In this document: positions 1 to 10,250 of the stretch, piece after piece
How the letters are laid out: each line of letters opens with the position of its first letter
How positions within the stretch are numbered: the stretch's first letter is position 1
Assembly: GCA_004168015.1 (NCBI GenBank)
Contig: SEYW01000006.1
Coordinates: 99,638-163,637, forward strand
Reading direction: 5' to 3'
Source: Methylolobus aquaticus
GTDB taxonomy: Bacteria > Pseudomonadota > Gammaproteobacteria > Methylococcales > Methylococcaceae
Length of the DNA stretch: 64,000 nucleotides
Program-made: the position numbers and the translations under genes
The notes under the pieces: model-generated
Database searches by the model: none
Told to the model about the DNA's origin: nothing
What the model saw: the letters and a program-made list of their open reading frames with translations, nothing else

Positions 1-140
1 TCATCCCCACGGGCGTGGGGGTGAGGCGGAATCAATCGGGGCGCCGGTGGCGCCACGATCCCCCGAACGACCGCCCAGGGATGGGCGGGCTGGGGAACGC
101 TACAGGACGTAAGCACCGCTGGCCTTCTCGCCCCCTTCCC
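1..140 (-). repeat. Decayed leader-distal end of the CRISPR array
   Basis: Positions 1-20 match repeat positions 5-24 exactly (TCATCCCCACGGGCGTGGGG), but the sequence then diverges (GTGAG instead of AACGG). A second weak relic lies at about 72-100, where only the 3' part (GGGGAACG) is preserved. No full repeat occurs until 141. This fits the usual decay of the oldest, leader-distal end of an array. Whether more repeats lie to the left of the window cannot be seen. Confidence 0.7.
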
Positions 141-903
141 CGGTTCATCCCCACGGGCGTGGGGAACGGTTCCCGGCGAATTTCCCCGCCTCGCCCAGCG
201 GCGGTTCATCCCCACGGGCGTGGGGAACGGGTGAAATCGGGCGAGACCAATACCGGCGCGATCGGTTCATCCCCACGGGCGTGGGGAACGGATGTCGTAC
301 TGGCAGAGTACCTCACCGTTCGCCGGTTCATCCCCACGGGCGTGGGGAACGGGTTGGGTCGTATGGGGCTGCAAAGACTAGGTGCGGTTCATCCCCACGG
401 GCGTGGGGAACGGACGCGCATGAGTACGGAAGGGCTCGGCGGGGCCGGTTCATCCCCACGGGCGTGGGGAACGGGCAATCACATTCCCGACCGGCGTGCT
501 GCCGATCGGTTCATCCCCACGGGCGTGGGGAACGGAGGCCCGCAAACGCCTGGCCGAGAAGTACGAACGGTTCATCCCCACGGGCGTGGGGAACGGTCGC
601 TCCTGTGTTCGGACGGGACTACACACGACGGTTCATCCCCACGGGCGTGGGGAACGGGACAGCACGTCGAATCGGTCCAGCGCGATGAACGGTTCATCCC
701 CACGGGCGTGGGGAACGGGGGCTACTGGGGCTTCCGCTCCGTCGCCCTCGGACGGTTCATCCCCACGGGCGTGGGGAACGGATCGCGAGGCGGATGCCGC
801 GCGGATTGAATGCCGGTTCATCCCCACGGGCGTGGGGAACGGATGCGCCGTCCGGTGCCCACTCGGGCCAATCGCGGTTCATCCCCACGGGCGTGGGGAA
901 CGG
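141..903 (-). CRISPR. Type I-E CRISPR array, 13 intact repeats and 12 spacers
   Basis: A 29-nt repeat beginning CGGTTCATCCCC and ending GGGGAACGG on the plus strand starts at 141, 202, 263, 324, 385, 446, 507, 568, 629, 690, 753, 814 and 875. All 13 copies look identical. Spacers are 32 nt, except the one at 719-752, which is 34 nt. Read on the minus strand, the repeat resembles the E. coli I-E repeat (CCGTTCCCC...GATGAACCG) and can fold a 7-bp stem, TCCCCAC/GTGGGGA, with loop GCCC, the expected Cas6e substrate. The array is therefore transcribed leftwards, in line with the cas operon, and new spacers should enter at the right (903) end. The spacers differ from one another; their targets cannot be told from the window. 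Confidence 0.98.
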
Positions 904-994: not shown

Positions 995-2216
<1,222 letters not shown>

Positions 2217-2248
2217 CTGGCGACCCGCCCTACCGTTACCGGGTACGC

Positions 2249-2818
2249 CTAGAGCACGACATCTTCATAGATGTCGGCGAAATCCAGGCTCAGAGCCACG
2301 CTGTCCAGGCGCACCGGTTCACCTGGCGACGGAATCCACTGGTCCCAGCCCCCTGCGGGCAGCCGGCGATAAATCTCGAGTCTGGCGGAACGGCTATCGA
2401 CCAGAACGTATTCCTGCAGGCTCTCAAGCGTCGCATACGCGCGCATCTTCTCACGCCGGTCGATAGCCTCGGTACTCGCCGACAATACCTCAACGATCAG
2501 CACGGGTTCGGTCAGGTAGTCGTTCGGAGCGTCGGCGGCAAGATCCCGGGGTGAACCGGTCACCACCACGTCCGGATAGAAATAGGCCTGCGCGTGCGCG
2601 ACATGGACCTTCATGTCGGAAATAAAGCCGCGGCACGGCTTGCCCCGCATGTGGGCGCGCAGATGGGAGAACAGATTGCCGGCGATGAGGTTATGGGCCT
2701 TGCCCGCCCCCGCCATCGCGTAGATATGTCCGGCCACGTATTCATGGCGGGCCGCGCTCGCCAGCTCGCCGGACAGATAATCGGCTTCGGCCACAGGAAG
2801 AACGGTTGCATGTTGCAT
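2249..2818 (-). CDS. Uma2-family (DUF820) restriction-endonuclease-like protein
   Basis: 189 aa, typical of the Uma2 family, which has a PD-(D/E)XK nuclease fold. Visible family blocks are EYVAGHIYAMAGAGKAHN near residues 27-44, YPDVVVTGSP near 81-90 (acidic catalytic residue) and LIVEVLSASTEAIDRREK near 107-124 (Glu and Lys of the active site). A GGAG motif lies about 7 nt upstream of the ATG, so it has its own ribosome binding site. It sits between cas6e and cas1 on the operon strand, with a 196-bp gap upstream and 32 bp downstream, and is not a standard component of type I-E loci. Biological roles of Uma2 proteins are largely unknown. It may be an insertion carried as cargo, or it may act with the system; the sequence does not decide. 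Confidence 0.88.
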   Translation of the reverse strand: MQHATVLPVAEADYLSGELASAARHEYVAGHIYAMAGAGKAHNLIAGNLFSHLRAHMRGKPCRGFISDMKVHVAHAQAYFYPDVVVTGSPRDLAADAPNDYLTEPVLIVEVLSASTEAIDRREKMRAYATLESLQEYVLVDSRSARLEIYRRLPAGGWDQWIPSPGEPVRLDSVALSLDFADIYEDVVL

Positions 2819-2961
2819 GGTTTGCTCCGCCAGTAAGGATCCCGGATCTCAATGGCCAACTTCCCGCTACAGGCTATGCCTGTTGCCCCGAGGGGAACGA
2901 CGGGGACGTCCTCTCCCCCCCGATTAGGCGGCTCCGCGCCTTGAAGACGGCCAAGGCATGA

Positions 2962-3042
2962 TCACACGCCCGAGAGACGCCGCACCAGCATCAGCCCGCA
3001 GCCGAAGGCCTTGTTCATCCGACCCTTGCAACCGAGAGTAAT
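2962..3042 (-). pseudogene. 3' remnant of a second cas6e
   Basis: Just past the cas6e stop, in a different frame, the minus strand reads MNKAFGCGLMLVRRLSGV and then a stop at 2962-2964. KAFGCGLML is the glycine-rich C-terminal motif typical of Cas6e proteins. The intact cas6e upstream already ends with its own version of that motif (GHGKALGLGLLSVAR). The extra tail overlaps the end of the intact gene and continues it out of frame. The simplest reading is the end of a former cas6e left behind when the current copy replaced it. The fragment is too short for the family call to be certain. Confidence 0.6.
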
Positions 3043-3638
3043 CCGAGTCCCAATGCTTTTCCATGCCCCAATCCGCGGAGCATAGCGTCGCGGAATGTTT
3101 CAGCGGACTGGACGGACAGGATTCCTTCAAACAATGCGGTGTCGAAAGTCATGCGGTGCCCCTTCGAGCCCTGGCGCACGTCCAGGCGTTCGCTCGCGCC
3201 GCGAATACAGCCCCGGACTTCGAAACCGTGCCGAGCGCCCTGCCGGTTGAGCCATTGGAGTTGATCCTCCTCCCGCAGCAAGCCGTAACGCTTACCCGCG
3301 CGGGTCACGGTGGGATTGGCCAGGAGTCGAAAGCGGTAGCGGGCGCCGGATTGGATCAGGCCTTCCAGTGCCACAGACTTGTTCCCATGTATCGCAAACG
3401 CGTAGCCACCGAGGGAATCCAACACGGTCCAGTTGCCTGGCTGCACCGACTGGACCAGAACGACACTGGCCGGCTGGCAGTCCGCACTACGCTCCAGACG
3501 CCAAAGGAATCCTGATGGTCGTGCGTTCTCGTCAGCGACGAAAGCGCGACTCAGCGAGCGATGCATGTCGTAGGCATTGGCCAGATCGCGGCGGGCGAGC
3601 GGGTGACGCGGATCGAGGGTCAGCTTAGACAGGTACAT
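3015..3638 (-). CDS. cas6e: CRISPR RNA endoribonuclease Cas6e (CasE/Cse3)
   Basis: 207 aa starting MYLSKLTLDPRHPLARRDL, a typical Cas6e N-terminus, with His26 of DMHRSLSRAF at the position of the family's catalytic histidine. The C-terminal glycine-rich loop is GLGHGKALGLGLL. It cleaves the repeat hairpin of the pre-crRNA and stays bound to the 3' handle as part of Cascade. The start at 3638 was chosen over longer upstream frames because it matches the family N-terminus; it overlaps the end of cas5e by 14 nt, the usual coupling. The 3' end is followed at once by an out-of-frame relic of another cas6e tail. Confidence 0.95.
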   Translation of the reverse strand: MYLSKLTLDPRHPLARRDLANAYDMHRSLSRAFVADENARPSGFLWRLERSADCQPASVVLVQSVQPGNWTVLDSLGGYAFAIHGNKSVALEGLIQSGARYRFRLLANPTVTRAGKRYGLLREEDQLQWLNRQGARHGFEVRGCIRGASERLDVRQGSKGHRMTFDTALFEGILSVQSAETFRDAMLRGLGHGKALGLGLLSVARVG

Positions 3639-4275
3639 GAGCCACCTCCGACGCCACATATCGGGGGCCGAAGCGTCGCTCCGAAAACGGCGCGACCGGT
3701 TGATCGAGGCGAATCGAGCCCTCGCTTTCGTGTTCCAGCACAAACCGCAGCGGTTCGTCCCGGTGCTCGAAGCGCGGTGCAGCGATCCGCGGCCACTGCC
3801 GCAACGTCTCACCGAGTGCGGTCTCCCTGACGCCTCCCGCAAGCCATACGGGTTCACCCGGCGGAAAGCTCTTGCGCCCAAGGGCCAACGGCCACACGGG
3901 ACAGCGGAGGGCCGCGTGAATACGATCCAGCAGGTCTCGGTCTTCACCCTCCAATCCGACCAGGAAGGCGGCATCGGCGAGGTAATACCGGGGGCTGACG
4001 ACCGTGCGCTTCAAATCGACTTTTCCGGCCGCCGTCATGACGCCAGTCGCGGTTTGGTAATCCCGCATCAGTAGTCCTTCACGGTCGACACGTACGCCCA
4101 TCCTCAAGCGAGCCAGATCCTCCACTGATTCGGCCCGATCCCGTCCCAGGGCGGCACACACCAGGCCCAGCACGCCCGACTTGGACGGCTCCAACTGGCT
4201 GTCCCGCTCATCGAAGCGGCTGGTAGTGCCCCAGGATTGCATCGGGCCGGCCAGCCGCAACAACAGTGTCGGCAT
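3625..4275 (-). CDS. cas5e: Cascade subunit Cas5e (CasD)
   Basis: 216 aa, close to E. coli CasD in length. It starts MPTLLLRLAGPMQSWG, the characteristic Cas5e N-terminus, and contains TSRFDERDSQLEPSKSGVLG near residues 18-37 and RDYQTATGVMTA near 71-82. In Cascade it caps the 5' handle of the crRNA next to Cas7e and Cse1. Its ATG lies 3 nt after the cas7e stop, and a GGAGG sequence in the end of cas7e provides the ribosome binding site. No defect is visible. Confidence 0.96.
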   Translation of the reverse strand: MPTLLLRLAGPMQSWGTTSRFDERDSQLEPSKSGVLGLVCAALGRDRAESVEDLARLRMGVRVDREGLLMRDYQTATGVMTAAGKVDLKRTVVSPRYYLADAAFLVGLEGEDRDLLDRIHAALRCPVWPLALGRKSFPPGEPVWLAGGVRETALGETLRQWPRIAAPRFEHRDEPLRFVLEHESEGSIRLDQPVAPFSERRFGPRYVASEVAHVPV

Positions 4276-4278
4276 GGC

Positions 4279-5421
4279 TCATCCTCCCATTTCGACGCGG
4301 ACCTTGTTCTGCACCCACTGGGCCAGTGCGTCCAAGTTCGCCTGGGCTTCGCCTTTGGTCGTAGGCCAGGCGCCCGTTAAGTCGATATAAGCCCAGTCGT
4401 CCTTCCCGTCGCCATAGAAGCCGGCCACCTTGGCATCGTGCTCCGCCAGCTTTTCCACCGACAAGCTCGTCAGCTCCCGGTCGGCCCTGGGCCAGACCGG
4501 CTTTTCGAAGGCATTGGCCAGATTGAACGGGCTGGAATGGCGCAGGACCACGCCGGCAAAGCTGGGAGGATTGTGCGCGGCAAAGGTATTCTGCTTGCCC
4601 GTCGGAATAGCGCGCGCCATCGCCTCCGTGAACGCGCCGATGCCGGTCAATGCCAGATCCTGATCGTCTTGCAGGTTCTCCTTGAGCTTTTGCACCTCGA
4701 TCACGGCATACCGGTAGAAGGTCGCGGAGTTGAACTCGACCTGTCCGATCATCCCGGCCCCAGTTTCTCCGACTTCGCCTTCGTCATCCACCGCGGTGAA
4801 GTAATCGAACTCCCGCTCGACCTTGTGCGTGGAGATGGCGTGGGCGACCTGGCAAGCCGCATCCTGGTTGACTTCCGGCATATCGGCCAACATGCGCCCG
4901 AACAAGGCAACGTCGACCGCTTTGCGACCGTCAAGCAGCCCTTTGGCTTCCTTGACCACCTCTGCCGGCACACTGGCCTTGGCTTCCTTCTTGGACCTCT
5001 TGCCCTCGACTACCGGCGCGTTACCCAGTGCATCCCAATACTTGTCGATCAATTGCGCGAAGTCTTCGATTTCGCCCCGCCCAAGAAAGAGCAGATACTC
5101 GGTGTCGCCATCGTCCTTGAGCTTCAGGCCCGCTCCCGCGAGAGCCTCGTCCACTTTGGCGCCGGCGTCTCCCCTCCCTAATTCGGCCAAACGTGACACT
5201 AAGAGGCGTTTGAGCTTTTTTGTCCGAACCCCGGTGTACTCGGTCGCAATGGCCGGGCCATCGGCCGCGTTCAAGCGGATCGCCCGCTTGAAGCATTGGC
5301 TGCTCACTCGCGCTCGCCGATGGCCGCCGAAGATGGCGTCCTTCGGCGCCCCGGTGTCGTCGCGATTGAGATTCGACGGTGCAAAATTCTGGATCAGGTG
5401 GAACTCGACAAACAGGCTCAT
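4279..5421 (-). CDS. cas7e: Cascade backbone subunit Cas7e (CasC/Cse4)
   Basis: 380 aa, slightly longer than E. coli CasC (363). It starts MSLFVEFHLIQNFAPSNLNR, and DDTGAPKDAIFGGHRRARVS follows, both hallmarks of Cas7e; the C-terminal half holds FTEAMARAIPTGKQNTFAAH. Six copies form the helical filament that holds the crRNA. The reading frame is open for another 106 codons upstream, but the family start is preceded by AAGGAG at a good distance, so 5421 is preferred. It lies 10 nt after the cse2 stop. Confidence 0.97.
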   Translation of the reverse strand: MSLFVEFHLIQNFAPSNLNRDDTGAPKDAIFGGHRRARVSSQCFKRAIRLNAADGPAIATEYTGVRTKKLKRLLVSRLAELGRGDAGAKVDEALAGAGLKLKDDGDTEYLLFLGRGEIEDFAQLIDKYWDALGNAPVVEGKRSKKEAKASVPAEVVKEAKGLLDGRKAVDVALFGRMLADMPEVNQDAACQVAHAISTHKVEREFDYFTAVDDEGEVGETGAGMIGQVEFNSATFYRYAVIEVQKLKENLQDDQDLALTGIGAFTEAMARAIPTGKQNTFAAHNPPSFAGVVLRHSSPFNLANAFEKPVWPRADRELTSLSVEKLAEHDAKVAGFYGDGKDDWAYIDLTGAWPTTKGEAQANLDALAQWVQNKVRVEMGG

Positions 5422-5431
5422 GGTGTACTCC

Positions 5432-5992
5432 TTACACGGTAGCTTCGGTTTCGGACTCGATTTCGTTGGCGCTGGCAGCGGGCGCGAATGCTCGGTAGAA
5501 ATCCCTGGCCCAACCCTGACGGACACGATCGCGTTTTTGCTCGTCCGAGTGATCGAACGCCTCGTACCAGCGCGCCAAGTCGTCCAGGAGCTTGCTGTAG
5601 TCGCAAGGGAAGCCATCGGCAGCCAACAGCGACACGACCTGGCGCAACAAGGAGGAGAGGCTGTCCGGAGATGCGCCCAATAGCGCGATGAACCGCGTTT
5701 CCAGACTGGCGCTGCCACGCGCACGCGCCAAATGGCCAAACGCAGCTGACAGACTCGTATTCGTCACGTGCTGCGGATGTGAAGCATACAAACCGGCCGT
5801 GAGATACAAGGCCTTCCGCCAGGGATCGTCTGCGTGCCTGTCCGCTCCAACGAAGCGCTCCACATAGGGATAAGCCCGCGGATAGGCGCCCGGCTCGAAC
5901 CCCAGGCTGCGCTTTAGATGGGCGAAGGCGCCCCGGTCGTGCTCCTTGAGGCCAGCCAGGTGGGCGATGAATGACTGAGCGAGCTCGCTCAT
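5432..5992 (-). CDS. cse2: Cascade small subunit Cse2 (CasB)
   Basis: 186 aa, a little longer than E. coli CasB (160). It is mainly helical by composition, starting MSELAQSFIAHLAGLKEHDR and containing ALYLTAGLYASHP and a C-terminal AFDHSDEQKRDRVRQGWARD segment typical of Cse2. A dimer lies along the belly of Cascade and stabilises the crRNA-target strand. Its start overlaps the cse1 stop by 4 nt. The last dozen residues are an acidic tail. The assignment rests on this sequence together with the fixed operon position. Confidence 0.94.
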   Translation of the reverse strand: MSELAQSFIAHLAGLKEHDRGAFAHLKRSLGFEPGAYPRAYPYVERFVGADRHADDPWRKALYLTAGLYASHPQHVTNTSLSAAFGHLARARGSASLETRFIALLGASPDSLSSLLRQVVSLLAADGFPCDYSKLLDDLARWYEAFDHSDEQKRDRVRQGWARDFYRAFAPAASANEIESETEATV

Positions 5993-7590
5993 GGATTAAC
6001 CTCCTCTGTCATGGGTTCGTCGATCGGCGGAGTCAGGGACTTCAGGAGGCCGATAAACCGCGGATAAGTCTTTGCCTCCGCCCGCAATGCGGCGGGCGAA
6101 TCGCCCAAGCTGCGGCGCACCGTTTCCCAGGCATCTCTGGCGCCTTTTTCCAAGGCGGTTTTCCATTCCCGGTCGGCCGCTTCGATCTCCCCAGCCGCGA
6201 GCTGTTGCATGAGCTTGGGTAAGGCGCGCTCAGCGTTAAGAAAATACACGGTCGCAAACGGACTCCGGTCTCTGATGTCTCTAGCTCTCTCCCTGGTGTC
6301 AGCGTTTCCAGAATCTGGCAGCGACTCAGCGACGAACTGAGCCAATAAGGAAGACAGCCCTCCTTTCTTAAACACAAACTCCTCTGCCATACTTACGTGG
6401 CCACGCAGTTCCGCTACTGAATCTGGATTGGTAACTAACGAACACGGAAGCTGAATCTGTTCAATACGCCACCTGAAAACCTTGCACTGAACCGGATCGC
6501 TGGCTGTACCCGCTGCCATAAAACTCATCGCCTGATCGACATCAACATGTTCCAGACAATTGAGCGCATGGCTAATGACTGCCGGCGCATGGTAGGCAAG
6601 CTCGCTGCTAGGCAACAATGCGGGCAGATCCCGCCACAGCGCCCGTCCATCCTGAAAGGTAATCGGCGAAATTTTGGTTTCACCACGTCGCCTATATGCA
6701 ACCATCTCATCTGGGAATCCAGGATCATGCGATTCCAAGGTCAACCCAGCACCAAACCGCACATAACTGACACCGATGGATCCTTTTTCACCATCAGCTA
6801 CGAGCAATGCAGCCCTGGTCAGTCGTGTACAAGCGTCGACTTGTCCCGTTGGCAAAGTTGCTCGTGCGCCGCGTAGATCTGGAGCAGACGGGGGATTTAT
6901 CTCCCATGGCGGTAGATCGTTCGAAGCATCACGTGACCATGAATGTAGAGCAAGACAGAGAGTCTGAGCTAGCGTCTTTCCAATAGGTAATATTGCACTG
7001 GCGTTGTCTAATGGGCCGGATTCATCACGAAATCGAAAACGTCTTACCATCCCACCCGGAACAAACTGCAGATAGCCCAAGAGGCTTCGTATTCCCTCCG
7101 CGTAGCTAATTCGTGTCGGGGCATCGTCAATGGAATGGTCAAAAACTGCTGGAGCATTACCGCTCACGTGATCTAAAGTGAGTTGAGTCCACGGTCTAAG
7201 GGCTTTATCTTCACGTGTCTCTGGGGCATCGGTTAATTCCGCCACCTGCATAAAGGGATGCGTGGGATGAAACAGCCAAAACCGCTCGCGCCATTGCTCC
7301 AAATAAGCCCGAATCGGGGTCTCAGGCAGGCCTTCCCGAAACCAGCGGGCACGGTCGGCGTCTTTCCACGGACCATGGTGCGTGGTCAACGCGCGATGCA
7401 GGGTCGCCAGCAGCACCCGGTAGAGTGCGATCAGGTTGGGTGGCGAGGTTTCGGCAATCGCGACGTACGCGCGGGCGTTCAACAGGGCCTTGGTCAGGCT
7501 GACCGGCACGACTTCGCCCGCGAGATTCCGCACTGGAATCCACGGTTCGTCGAGAAGGTTGAAGGCGGGGGCGTCGGCGTCGGTCGTCAT
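5989..7590 (-). CDS. cse1: Cascade large subunit Cse1 (CasA)
   Basis: 533 aa, slightly longer than E. coli CasA (502). It starts with FNLLDEPWIPVRNLAGEVVP, the Cse1 signature, and keeps HPTHPFMQVAEL near residues 122-133. Cse1 recognises the PAM, opens the target and recruits Cas3. Its start overlaps cas3 by 4 nt. Hand counts of 60-bp rows suggest that the part encoding about residues 110-450 (about 7250-6240) is AT-richer (43-53% GC in four rows) than the adjoining 5' end of the gene (62-67% in two rows), so the gene may be a mosaic. The reading frame is intact throughout. Confidence 0.96.
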   Translation of the reverse strand: MTTDADAPAFNLLDEPWIPVRNLAGEVVPVSLTKALLNARAYVAIAETSPPNLIALYRVLLATLHRALTTHHGPWKDADRARWFREGLPETPIRAYLEQWRERFWLFHPTHPFMQVAELTDAPETREDKALRPWTQLTLDHVSGNAPAVFDHSIDDAPTRISYAEGIRSLLGYLQFVPGGMVRRFRFRDESGPLDNASAILPIGKTLAQTLCLALHSWSRDASNDLPPWEINPPSAPDLRGARATLPTGQVDACTRLTRAALLVADGEKGSIGVSYVRFGAGLTLESHDPGFPDEMVAYRRRGETKISPITFQDGRALWRDLPALLPSSELAYHAPAVISHALNCLEHVDVDQAMSFMAAGTASDPVQCKVFRWRIEQIQLPCSLVTNPDSVAELRGHVSMAEEFVFKKGGLSSLLAQFVAESLPDSGNADTRERARDIRDRSPFATVYFLNAERALPKLMQQLAAGEIEAADREWKTALEKGARDAWETVRRSLGDSPAALRAEAKTYPRFIGLLKSLTPPIDEPMTEEVNP

Positions 7591-10250
7591 GGTTCCTCCT
7601 TGCTCTGGTAGGTGATGCCGAGTTCGGAATCGAGCCGCACTCGCAGCTTGCCGAAAGCAGCCTCGCTATTGCAGAGCCGCAATGGCTTGAGGTTCCGCAC
7701 CAGCGGATGGGATTCAAAACCGGCGGGGACGGATTCTGCTGCCAGAGCCAACACGACATCCTTCCGGCTGAGTCGCACCTGGCGCTGGAAGAGACGGCGC
7801 GCCAGGGCATCGTCGAATTCCACATTCGGGTCGAAGGGAGGCTCGCCCGCAAACAGGCACCAGCCCCCGTCGGTGACGTGGACCGGTACAACGGCAAGGC
7901 CTTCCTCACCCAGGCGGGTCACGACGGGTAATCCCTCGCCTTCCCTTTCCTCATTCGCCCGCGGTGCGCTGGTGTAGGCGTTCTGCGGTTCGGCCGCGGC
8001 GTCGAGCGAAACATTGATGGCCTGTTGCCGCTGCTTTTGTATCTCCGCGAAGTGCTCACCTAGGGCACGATCGAGCTTCTTCGCGAATTCCGCACGATTC
8101 TCGTCTTCCCACTCCACGTCGCCATAAACCGCCTGCACCAAGCGATCGATGTCTTGCGGCAAGTGCCAGACGGTTTCCTTGCCAGCGATACCCCAGGTCC
8201 GATACAGCACATAGGGATCGTAGACAAACCCCCAAGCCGTACCGATCAATTCGGGTTCCCGTTCGCGCTGGAAACCGGCGACGAACAGACGTGGTTCCCG
8301 ATGCTGAATCGGACGCACTCGGAAATGGCGATGGAGGCGCCCGGCCCGCTGCAGCAACAAATCCACCGGTGCCAGATCGGTCAGCATGAAGTCGAAATCG
8401 ACATCGAGGCTTTGCTCGACGACCTGCGTCGCGATCAACAAGGCCCGAGCCGGACGTCGGCAGTCTGCGCTATTCCCGAAGTACGCCAACACCTGCCTTT
8501 CCCGCTCGCTGCGTTCATCCGCGGGGTAACGCGCATGGAACAGCAATAACTCGGTATCGCCGGTACAGTCCTCTTGCATCAAGCGATAGAGGTCTTGAGC
8601 GCGCTGCACGGTGTTGACGATGACGGCGCCACAGCCGCCCCCGGACAATGCCTCGAGGCCGGCGTCCCTAAGCATGTCCAAGCCTTCGGCGATGCCAACG
8701 ATCGCGACCGGCGCGAGCGGACGGCACTCGACGTGCTCGCCGATGACCTCGGCTTCACGCGTCATCAGCACCCGTGGATACGGCAGCTCCGGTGCGCCGG
8801 TCGCTCCCCATGCACCGAGGAAAGCCGCCCGTGTTTTCGCTGGCAGCGTCGCGCTCATCAACACCACGGAACAATTCATGGCCCTGAGCCACCGCAACAG
8901 CGCTGCGATCAGGCCGCTGGTATACGTGTCGTAGGCGTGAACCTCGTCCAGCACCACGACACGGTTGGCCAGCCCCCACAACCGAACGAAATGGTGCTTG
9001 ACATGCAGTGTCGCGAACAGCGCTTGATCGACCGTGCCGACGCCATAAGGCGATAGCAGCGGGCGCTTGCGCTGCGAGAACCAGGCCGATGCGCTGACAG
9101 ACTCCCGTGGCGAATGATCGACGTCCCGCAACCGATGCACACGCGAATCCAAGAGCGCTCCGGCGTGGACCAACTGCATGTCGAGTTGAATATCCGGAGA
9201 ACAGCCCTGTAGGAACGTCAAGGCCCGGTCGAACATCGCGTTACCCGTCGCTTGGGTGGGGAGCGCAACGTAAAGCCCTCGATGTCCGTTCGCAGCCTGA
9301 AGTCGAAGGTGGGCCAGGAAAGCCAACTCCGTCTTCCCTTCGCCCATGGGTGCTTCGACGATCATCAGCGCCGGACCCTTCGACCTGGCAAGTAACCGAT
9401 CGGCAGCCAATTGCAGCGGCCGCGCTTGGATCTGGGCCCGGTTAAGTATGCGGCGCACCAGTGCGTGACTATCGGCCTCGCATTGCAGCAGCCTATGGAA
9501 ACGCGGCCAGCCGATTTCCGACAAGGCCCGGTCGGCCGGTTCCAGGGAACGCTGGTAGTGTCCGGACAAGGTCCGATCCCGCTCTCCCGGCGGAAACCAG
9601 TCCTGATTGGAGCCAATCCAGTCAGCGACGCTGGTCAGCCCGGCCAACCAGGCCACCGCGGGCAACTCTATTGCAGTCGCGGATGGGCTCTGTTCGGGGA
9701 CGAGGGTCTGCCAATAGGCCGCAAACAACGCTTCCCTGGCTTCCAGCCACGCTCCTCCCTCGTACCTCGGCTTACCGTTAGCGATCTCACTGGACTTTGG
9801 CATATACCCATGATGGGCCGCCAAAGCCTGGGTGATCGGGTCAATCCACGCCGCCTCCGGGAAGCGAGCCGAGAACACGCGGCGTAGCAACGCCGCACTG
9901 GCCACATCATGCCGCGCCACCGTCCGTGAGACGGGGCTGAAGGGCAGACCCGCCGCTTCGTCGAGTGTTTGCCCTTCAGGCCACTTTGCTTGAAAGCCGG
10001 GAATCCCCTTGCCGAAATCGTGGAGCCCGGCCATCGCGGCCAGCCAGCGCGGTGTCGATGACAGCGGCAACCCGAAAGCTTGTGCGGCCCACTCCAAAGT
10101 CTTCTCGGATTCGCGGTGCAGCAAGGCTTCAGCGACGGCCGCGACATCCAGCATGTGGGCCAGCAGCCCATGCCCTTGCACTTCCCCGCTCTTGGCCCAC
10201 AAACTTCGGGCCGCCTTCGGGAGTTGATCAAACTCCATCTCCAACTGCAT
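7587..10250 (-). CDS. cas3: CRISPR-associated nuclease/helicase Cas3, type I-E
   Basis: 887 aa, essentially the length of E. coli Cas3. The N-terminal HD nuclease domain shows His27 and His32 (GHGLLAHMLD), His77-Asp78 (GLHDFGK), His114 and His146-His147. The SF2 helicase part shows Walker A GEGKT at 303-307, DEVH at 435-438, SAT at 466-468 and QRAGR at 634-638. It is recruited by target-bound Cascade and degrades the displaced strand. It is the first gene of the operon; GGGAGA upstream of the ATG is a plausible ribosome binding site. All catalytic motifs are present, so interference is predicted to be functional. I saw no strong sigma70 promoter upstream. Confidence 0.98.
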   Translation of the reverse strand: MQLEMEFDQLPKAARSLWAKSGEVQGHGLLAHMLDVAAVAEALLHRESEKTLEWAAQAFGLPLSSTPRWLAAMAGLHDFGKGIPGFQAKWPEGQTLDEAAGLPFSPVSRTVARHDVASAALLRRVFSARFPEAAWIDPITQALAAHHGYMPKSSEIANGKPRYEGGAWLEAREALFAAYWQTLVPEQSPSATAIELPAVAWLAGLTSVADWIGSNQDWFPPGERDRTLSGHYQRSLEPADRALSEIGWPRFHRLLQCEADSHALVRRILNRAQIQARPLQLAADRLLARSKGPALMIVEAPMGEGKTELAFLAHLRLQAANGHRGLYVALPTQATGNAMFDRALTFLQGCSPDIQLDMQLVHAGALLDSRVHRLRDVDHSPRESVSASAWFSQRKRPLLSPYGVGTVDQALFATLHVKHHFVRLWGLANRVVVLDEVHAYDTYTSGLIAALLRWLRAMNCSVVLMSATLPAKTRAAFLGAWGATGAPELPYPRVLMTREAEVIGEHVECRPLAPVAIVGIAEGLDMLRDAGLEALSGGGCGAVIVNTVQRAQDLYRLMQEDCTGDTELLLFHARYPADERSERERQVLAYFGNSADCRRPARALLIATQVVEQSLDVDFDFMLTDLAPVDLLLQRAGRLHRHFRVRPIQHREPRLFVAGFQREREPELIGTAWGFVYDPYVLYRTWGIAGKETVWHLPQDIDRLVQAVYGDVEWEDENRAEFAKKLDRALGEHFAEIQKQRQQAINVSLDAAAEPQNAYTSAPRANEEREGEGLPVVTRLGEEGLAVVPVHVTDGGWCLFAGEPPFDPNVEFDDALARRLFQRQVRLSRKDVVLALAAESVPAGFESHPLVRNLKPLRLCNSEAAFGKLRVRLDSELGITYQSKEEP

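Follow-up and report, generated by a model that had tools for sequence, protein, structure and literature searches.

Why should a type I-E CRISPR operon carry a gene for a Uma2-family nuclease at the point where its effector genes give way to its adaptation genes? The question is raised by a contig of Methylolobus aquaticus (SEYW01000006.1), of which a stretch of 64,000 nucleotides, here called the window, was analysed. Its type I-E locus has all parts present and is laid out entirely on the minus strand in the order cas3 (7587..10250), cas8e (cse1; 5989..7590), cse2 (cas11e; 5432..5992), cas7e (4279..5421), cas5e (3625..4275), cas6e (3015..3638), uma2 (2249..2818), cas1e (1290..2216), cas2e (995..1309) and CRISPR array (1..903). 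The first five cas genes were recognized by profile matches, cas6e by TIGR01907 (85.9 bits), cas1e by TIGR03638 (369 bits) and cas2e by TIGR01873. The array has 14 repeats, mostly with a 61-bp period, and an irregular distal end; its first two repeats are separated by 144 bp (positions 1-144), with a partial repeat near 90-110. The uma2 gene starts with ATG, encodes 189 amino acids and is preceded by a GGAG-like ribosome binding site. It is separated from the cas6e stop by 196 bp and from the cas1 start by 32 bp, and no promoter or terminator patterns were found in window positions 2100-3700. With these coordinates, the GGAG-like site and a match to PF05685, the initial annotation, which placed a Uma2 gene with its own ribosome binding site between cas6e and cas1 on the strand of the operon, was confirmed, and the gene is intact.

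The sole Pfam match of the protein is to Uma2 (PF05685), with E 1.2e-32 and a score of 113.3 bits where 27 would suffice. Its AlphaFold model has a mean pLDDT of 88 and matches the solved Uma2/DUF820 folds 6okh, 9y1l, 3ot2 and 1wdj with E of 2e-8 or better, the predicted structure thus having the restriction-endonuclease-like fold of Uma2 proteins. The PADLOC candidate-defence model PDC-S03 also matches (E 1.8e-22); we take the PDC-S prefix to mean a candidate single-gene system, and no paper found in a literature search names PDC-S03. The PD-EXX-K site and the conserved histidine are intact, and H42, P82-D83, E110 and K124 are invariant across the nine rows of the Uma2 alignment. The putative active-site residues H42, D83, E110 and K124 are the equivalents of H43, D83, E111 and K127 proposed for COG4636 (PMC551604). 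Profile, fold and PD-EXX-K pattern are therefore those of the family (PF05685, COG4636, DUF820), for which a role as a solo toxin was considered likely in a 2009 paper (PMC2701414). The difference lies in genomic setting, the cas1-linked clade having been encountered solely at cas1e of type I-E operons.

This setting is conserved. Among 38 genomes of the family, 12 carry a close Cas1e and three of these 12 carry uma2; the three closest Uma2 proteins in the family are those of the window and of genomes G015 and G007, each encoded just upstream of cas1. A wider scan of about 85,000 species with two peptide patterns, which can miss relatives, gave two places above 60% identity, namely L055 (the same locus as that of G007, with an identical protein sequence) and L056. 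The latter is a 5-kb contig on which uma2 is followed, after 3 bp, by cas1 and then by cas2 and an array; it belongs to an assembly labelled Verrucomicrobia and may be misbinned, and the label was not counted as cross-phylum spread. Every Uma2 protein with 65% identity or more, four in all with that of the window, is thus encoded directly upstream of cas1e (identity to the window protein 75% in G015, 72% in G007 and 65% in L056). No cas matches were found near about 40 Uma2 genes below 60% identity, in flanks that were mostly 1.5 kb per side with a few contigs shorter, and none of 30 type I-E loci elsewhere in the phylum has a Uma2 gene near cas1e. Uma2 genes of the cas1-linked clade were not found in viral contigs, and Uma2 relatives on plasmids reach only 47% identity. 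The initial annotation would have taken uma2 for a chance insertion had it been missing from other I-E loci and had close paralogues been scattered through its own genome. The same position is occupied in three more loci, and of the six other, scattered Uma2 genes in this genome the two that BLAST could align are 44% and 33% identical. Judged from these comparisons, uma2 at the cas6e-cas1 junction is not a chance insertion. The four cas1-linked genes, with dN/dS of 0.09-0.24 in all six pairs, are also under purifying selection and selectively maintained.

Maintenance of this kind bears on the view that uma2 is a passenger, that is, a mobile or solo defence gene that settled in a slot tolerant of insertions within a well-expressed operon and persists for its own benefit, unconnected in mechanism with CRISPR. 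Besides the purifying selection, this view has to accommodate the finding of the cas1-linked clade only at cas1 and the constant placing of the linked genes on the operon strand. It does fit the patchy presence in the family genomes, the proliferation of Uma2 as a family, evident from the six further copies in this genome, and the existence of related Uma2 genes away from cas. A fully supported group of seven on the Uma2 tree unites the four linked genes with three unlinked ones (G006, G380 and G509). On the Cas1 tree the four uma2-bearing loci do not form one branch but are scattered within a single 13-member clade, which requires repeated loss or repeated gain and so argues against a tight functional need. 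A single old gain followed by losses is the simplest reading, and repeated gain is also possible.

A further point against a mere passenger comes from the history of the operon itself. Cas1 and Cas2 of the window are about 89-93% identical to those of family relatives, whereas its effector proteins reach at most 34% (Cas6e), 46% (Cas7) and 52% (Cas5) identity to those of any locus examined, the limit for Cas6e holding also against relatives in the order. Directly past the cas6e stop, on the same strand, lies a 36-nt remnant (2978..3013) of another cas6e 3' end, identical at 34 of 36 nucleotides to cas6e of G015; the alignment scores 32, against a maximum of 15 for shuffled sequences. This G015-like remnant points to replacement of the effector genes while uma2, cas1 and cas2 stayed together. 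On the simplest reading, effector genes of an older, G015-like kind were swapped out and uma2-cas1-cas2 was left in place. Tandem double cas6e C-termini were observed in seven other loci (L091, L097, L109, L110, L115, L118 and L130), which suggests that effector genes have been replaced repeatedly, with the break falling at the cas6e 3' end. As a separate observation, the cas1 genes of G033:C378 and G061:C177 each contain one in-frame TAA, so both may be decaying.

The gene that stays with cas1-cas2 could be an adaptation factor, as Uma2 might process prespacers or otherwise aid Cas1-Cas2 as an analogue of Cas4. Cas4 is a PD-(D/E)XK nuclease encoded beside cas1, and type I-E, to our knowledge, lacks it. 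The Uma2 protein likewise belongs to a PD-(D/E)XK nuclease family, has a predicted fold resembling that of Cas4, is encoded immediately before cas1 at each of the four loci (at 3 bp in L056) and moves with cas1-cas2, not with the effector genes. Against this, the closest Cas1 relatives manage without uma2, toxin-antitoxin (TA) genes otherwise occupy its position, and the 61-bp repeat period is found in arrays both with uma2 (window, L056 and G015) and without it (G010), so that no effect on spacer length is seen. The single cysteine of the protein (C62) also differs from the four cysteines of the Cas4 iron-sulphur cluster, which it therefore could not form. Membership of the Cas4 family itself was considered and rejected, as the protein has no Cas4 profile match, its only Pfam match is to Uma2, and C62 is its single cysteine. 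An adaptation role in general is thus considered improbable. Equally doubtful is the specific proposal of a Cas4-like nuclease for prespacer processing or spacer capture, recruited to the Cas1-Cas2 of a system otherwise without a dedicated one; a role of the Cas4 kind is conceivable but lacks support.

What else occupies the cas6e-cas1 interval is more informative. The order, inferred to be Methylococcales, was represented by 311 genomes, of which 77 have a close Cas1e; 74 loci were examined and 68 of them, the window included, have a placeable cas6e end. In 57 of the 68, cas6e and cas1 are 100 bp or more apart, and in the other 11 they abut. Elsewhere in the phylum cas6e abuts cas1 in 28 of 30 I-E loci and a gap occurs in two, so the view that canonical I-E operons have no gap here largely holds outside the order. 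The difference in gap frequency has a Fisher p of 2e-13, ignoring relatedness, the locus counts being raw and uncorrected for it. Recognizable TA genes lie inside the gap in 44 of the 68 loci, with every match on the operon strand. Pfam analysis of representatives identified ParE, PhdYefM, PIN, HepT, MNT-type nucleotidyltransferase, TacA with GNAT, HigB with HTH, HicB-like and BrnT families, and the pairings include Phd/ParE, RHH/PIN, MNT/HepT, TacAT and HigBA, the RHH assignment having been made by reading the sequences, since two representatives have no Pfam match. In all, 106 TA matches were counted in 61 kb of slots against four in 317 kb of effector DNA, a contrast that is partly built in because the query set came from the slots themselves; this bias does not affect the gap-length comparison. 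Taken together, the sequences indicate that the cas6e-cas1 junction in the order is an accessory slot, filled by TA modules or by a lone Uma2.

In G015 and G007 the slot reads RHH-PIN-uma2-cas1, which raises the idea that the three genes form one TA module, with RHH holding Uma2 in check. The window retains uma2 alone, with no detectable RHH or PIN, and a search for a remnant of either between its cas6e and uma2 gave no significant match. Furthermore, RHH and PIN matches occur without uma2 in at least three relatives (L063, L066 and L071), and identity between G015 and G007 is 79% for Uma2 compared with 57% for RHH and 61% for PIN. Such a module is considered very unlikely.

Because TA modules otherwise fill the slot, uma2 more probably encodes a replaceable nuclease of toxin-like or defence type than an enzyme of adaptation. 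The best explanation, to which we give about an even chance, is that uma2 encodes an accessory nuclease in a TA-type slot, inherited with cas1-cas2, which would serve as a back-up or toxin-like effector by cutting DNA and be exchangeable with TA modules. The gene would most likely be expressed together with the cas genes, and its product would cut DNA. If CRISPR immunity came under stress, Uma2 might provide defence by damage or dormancy, possibly under the control of Cas proteins, and could be functionally interchangeable with the TA modules that fill the slot in relatives. Directly observed are the gene, its position, its conservation and selection, the intact putative active site, the predicted fold, the content of the slot and the scar of the exchange. 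Counting against the back-up toxin reading are the presence of uma2 in only four loci and the three members of the same supported clade (G006, G380 and G509) that lie away from cas1. An adjacent cognate antitoxin, as in a type II TA pair, was not found at the window uma2, so a toxin would need control by some other factor. Passenger cargo is accordingly a strong rival, if one that falls clearly short of an even chance, as the slot also takes many unrelated TA families; survival of uma2 beside cas1-cas2 through the effector replacement speaks against it. Among the roles suggested in the initial annotation, cargo and back-up effector are thus retained and spacer capture is disfavoured, the slot holding mostly TA modules. 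Judged by its TA-type slot in these methanotrophs, Uma2 is most probably cargo or an exchangeable weapon in reserve and not a new core part of CRISPR.

Uma2 accessory genes have been published in type III-B (PMC11855584) and type V-A (PMC9067536) CRISPR loci, so a Uma2 gene beside cas genes is not new as such. Those genes likewise lie among or near cas genes, but in other CRISPR types; here the position before cas1 is fixed and the gene tracks the adaptation genes. The association at the conserved I-E position is tied to an order-specific slot that mostly holds TA genes, and not to CRISPR adaptation generally. The hypothesis that immunity and toxins are coupled is established (PMC3506569), and toxin-type genes within CRISPR loci are known from that work and from CreTA (PMC9458426). 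Typical antitoxins were said to be absent from immunity loci (PMC3506569), whereas the slot in this order holds complete protein TA pairs. An ectopic repeat of the CreTA type at uma2 was considered and rejected, as repeat similarity in the cas6e-uma2 intergenic stretch was no better than in shuffles. A literature search, covering few subscription journals, brought up no account of this I-E slot or of TA genes lying between cas6e and cas1. With a lineage-specific I-E slot between effector and adaptation genes, holding exchangeable TA modules or a lone Uma2, methanotrophs would offer a test of whether CRISPR immunity is coupled to suicide or dormancy, as has been proposed. For the little-understood Uma2 family, the slot supplies a definite genetic setting in which intact and conserved members are found.

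Some minor observations concern other loci of the survey. The locus of G015 (L187) has a very long array, in which 138 repeats were counted in the 10 kb that follow cas2. HicB-like stretches were seen outside the slot, upstream of the cas6e end, in L095, L099, L114 and L119. The slot of L067 (G029) contains a pair of genes for proteins of 109 and 183 amino acids, both lacking a Pfam match, which is a candidate for an unknown TA pair.
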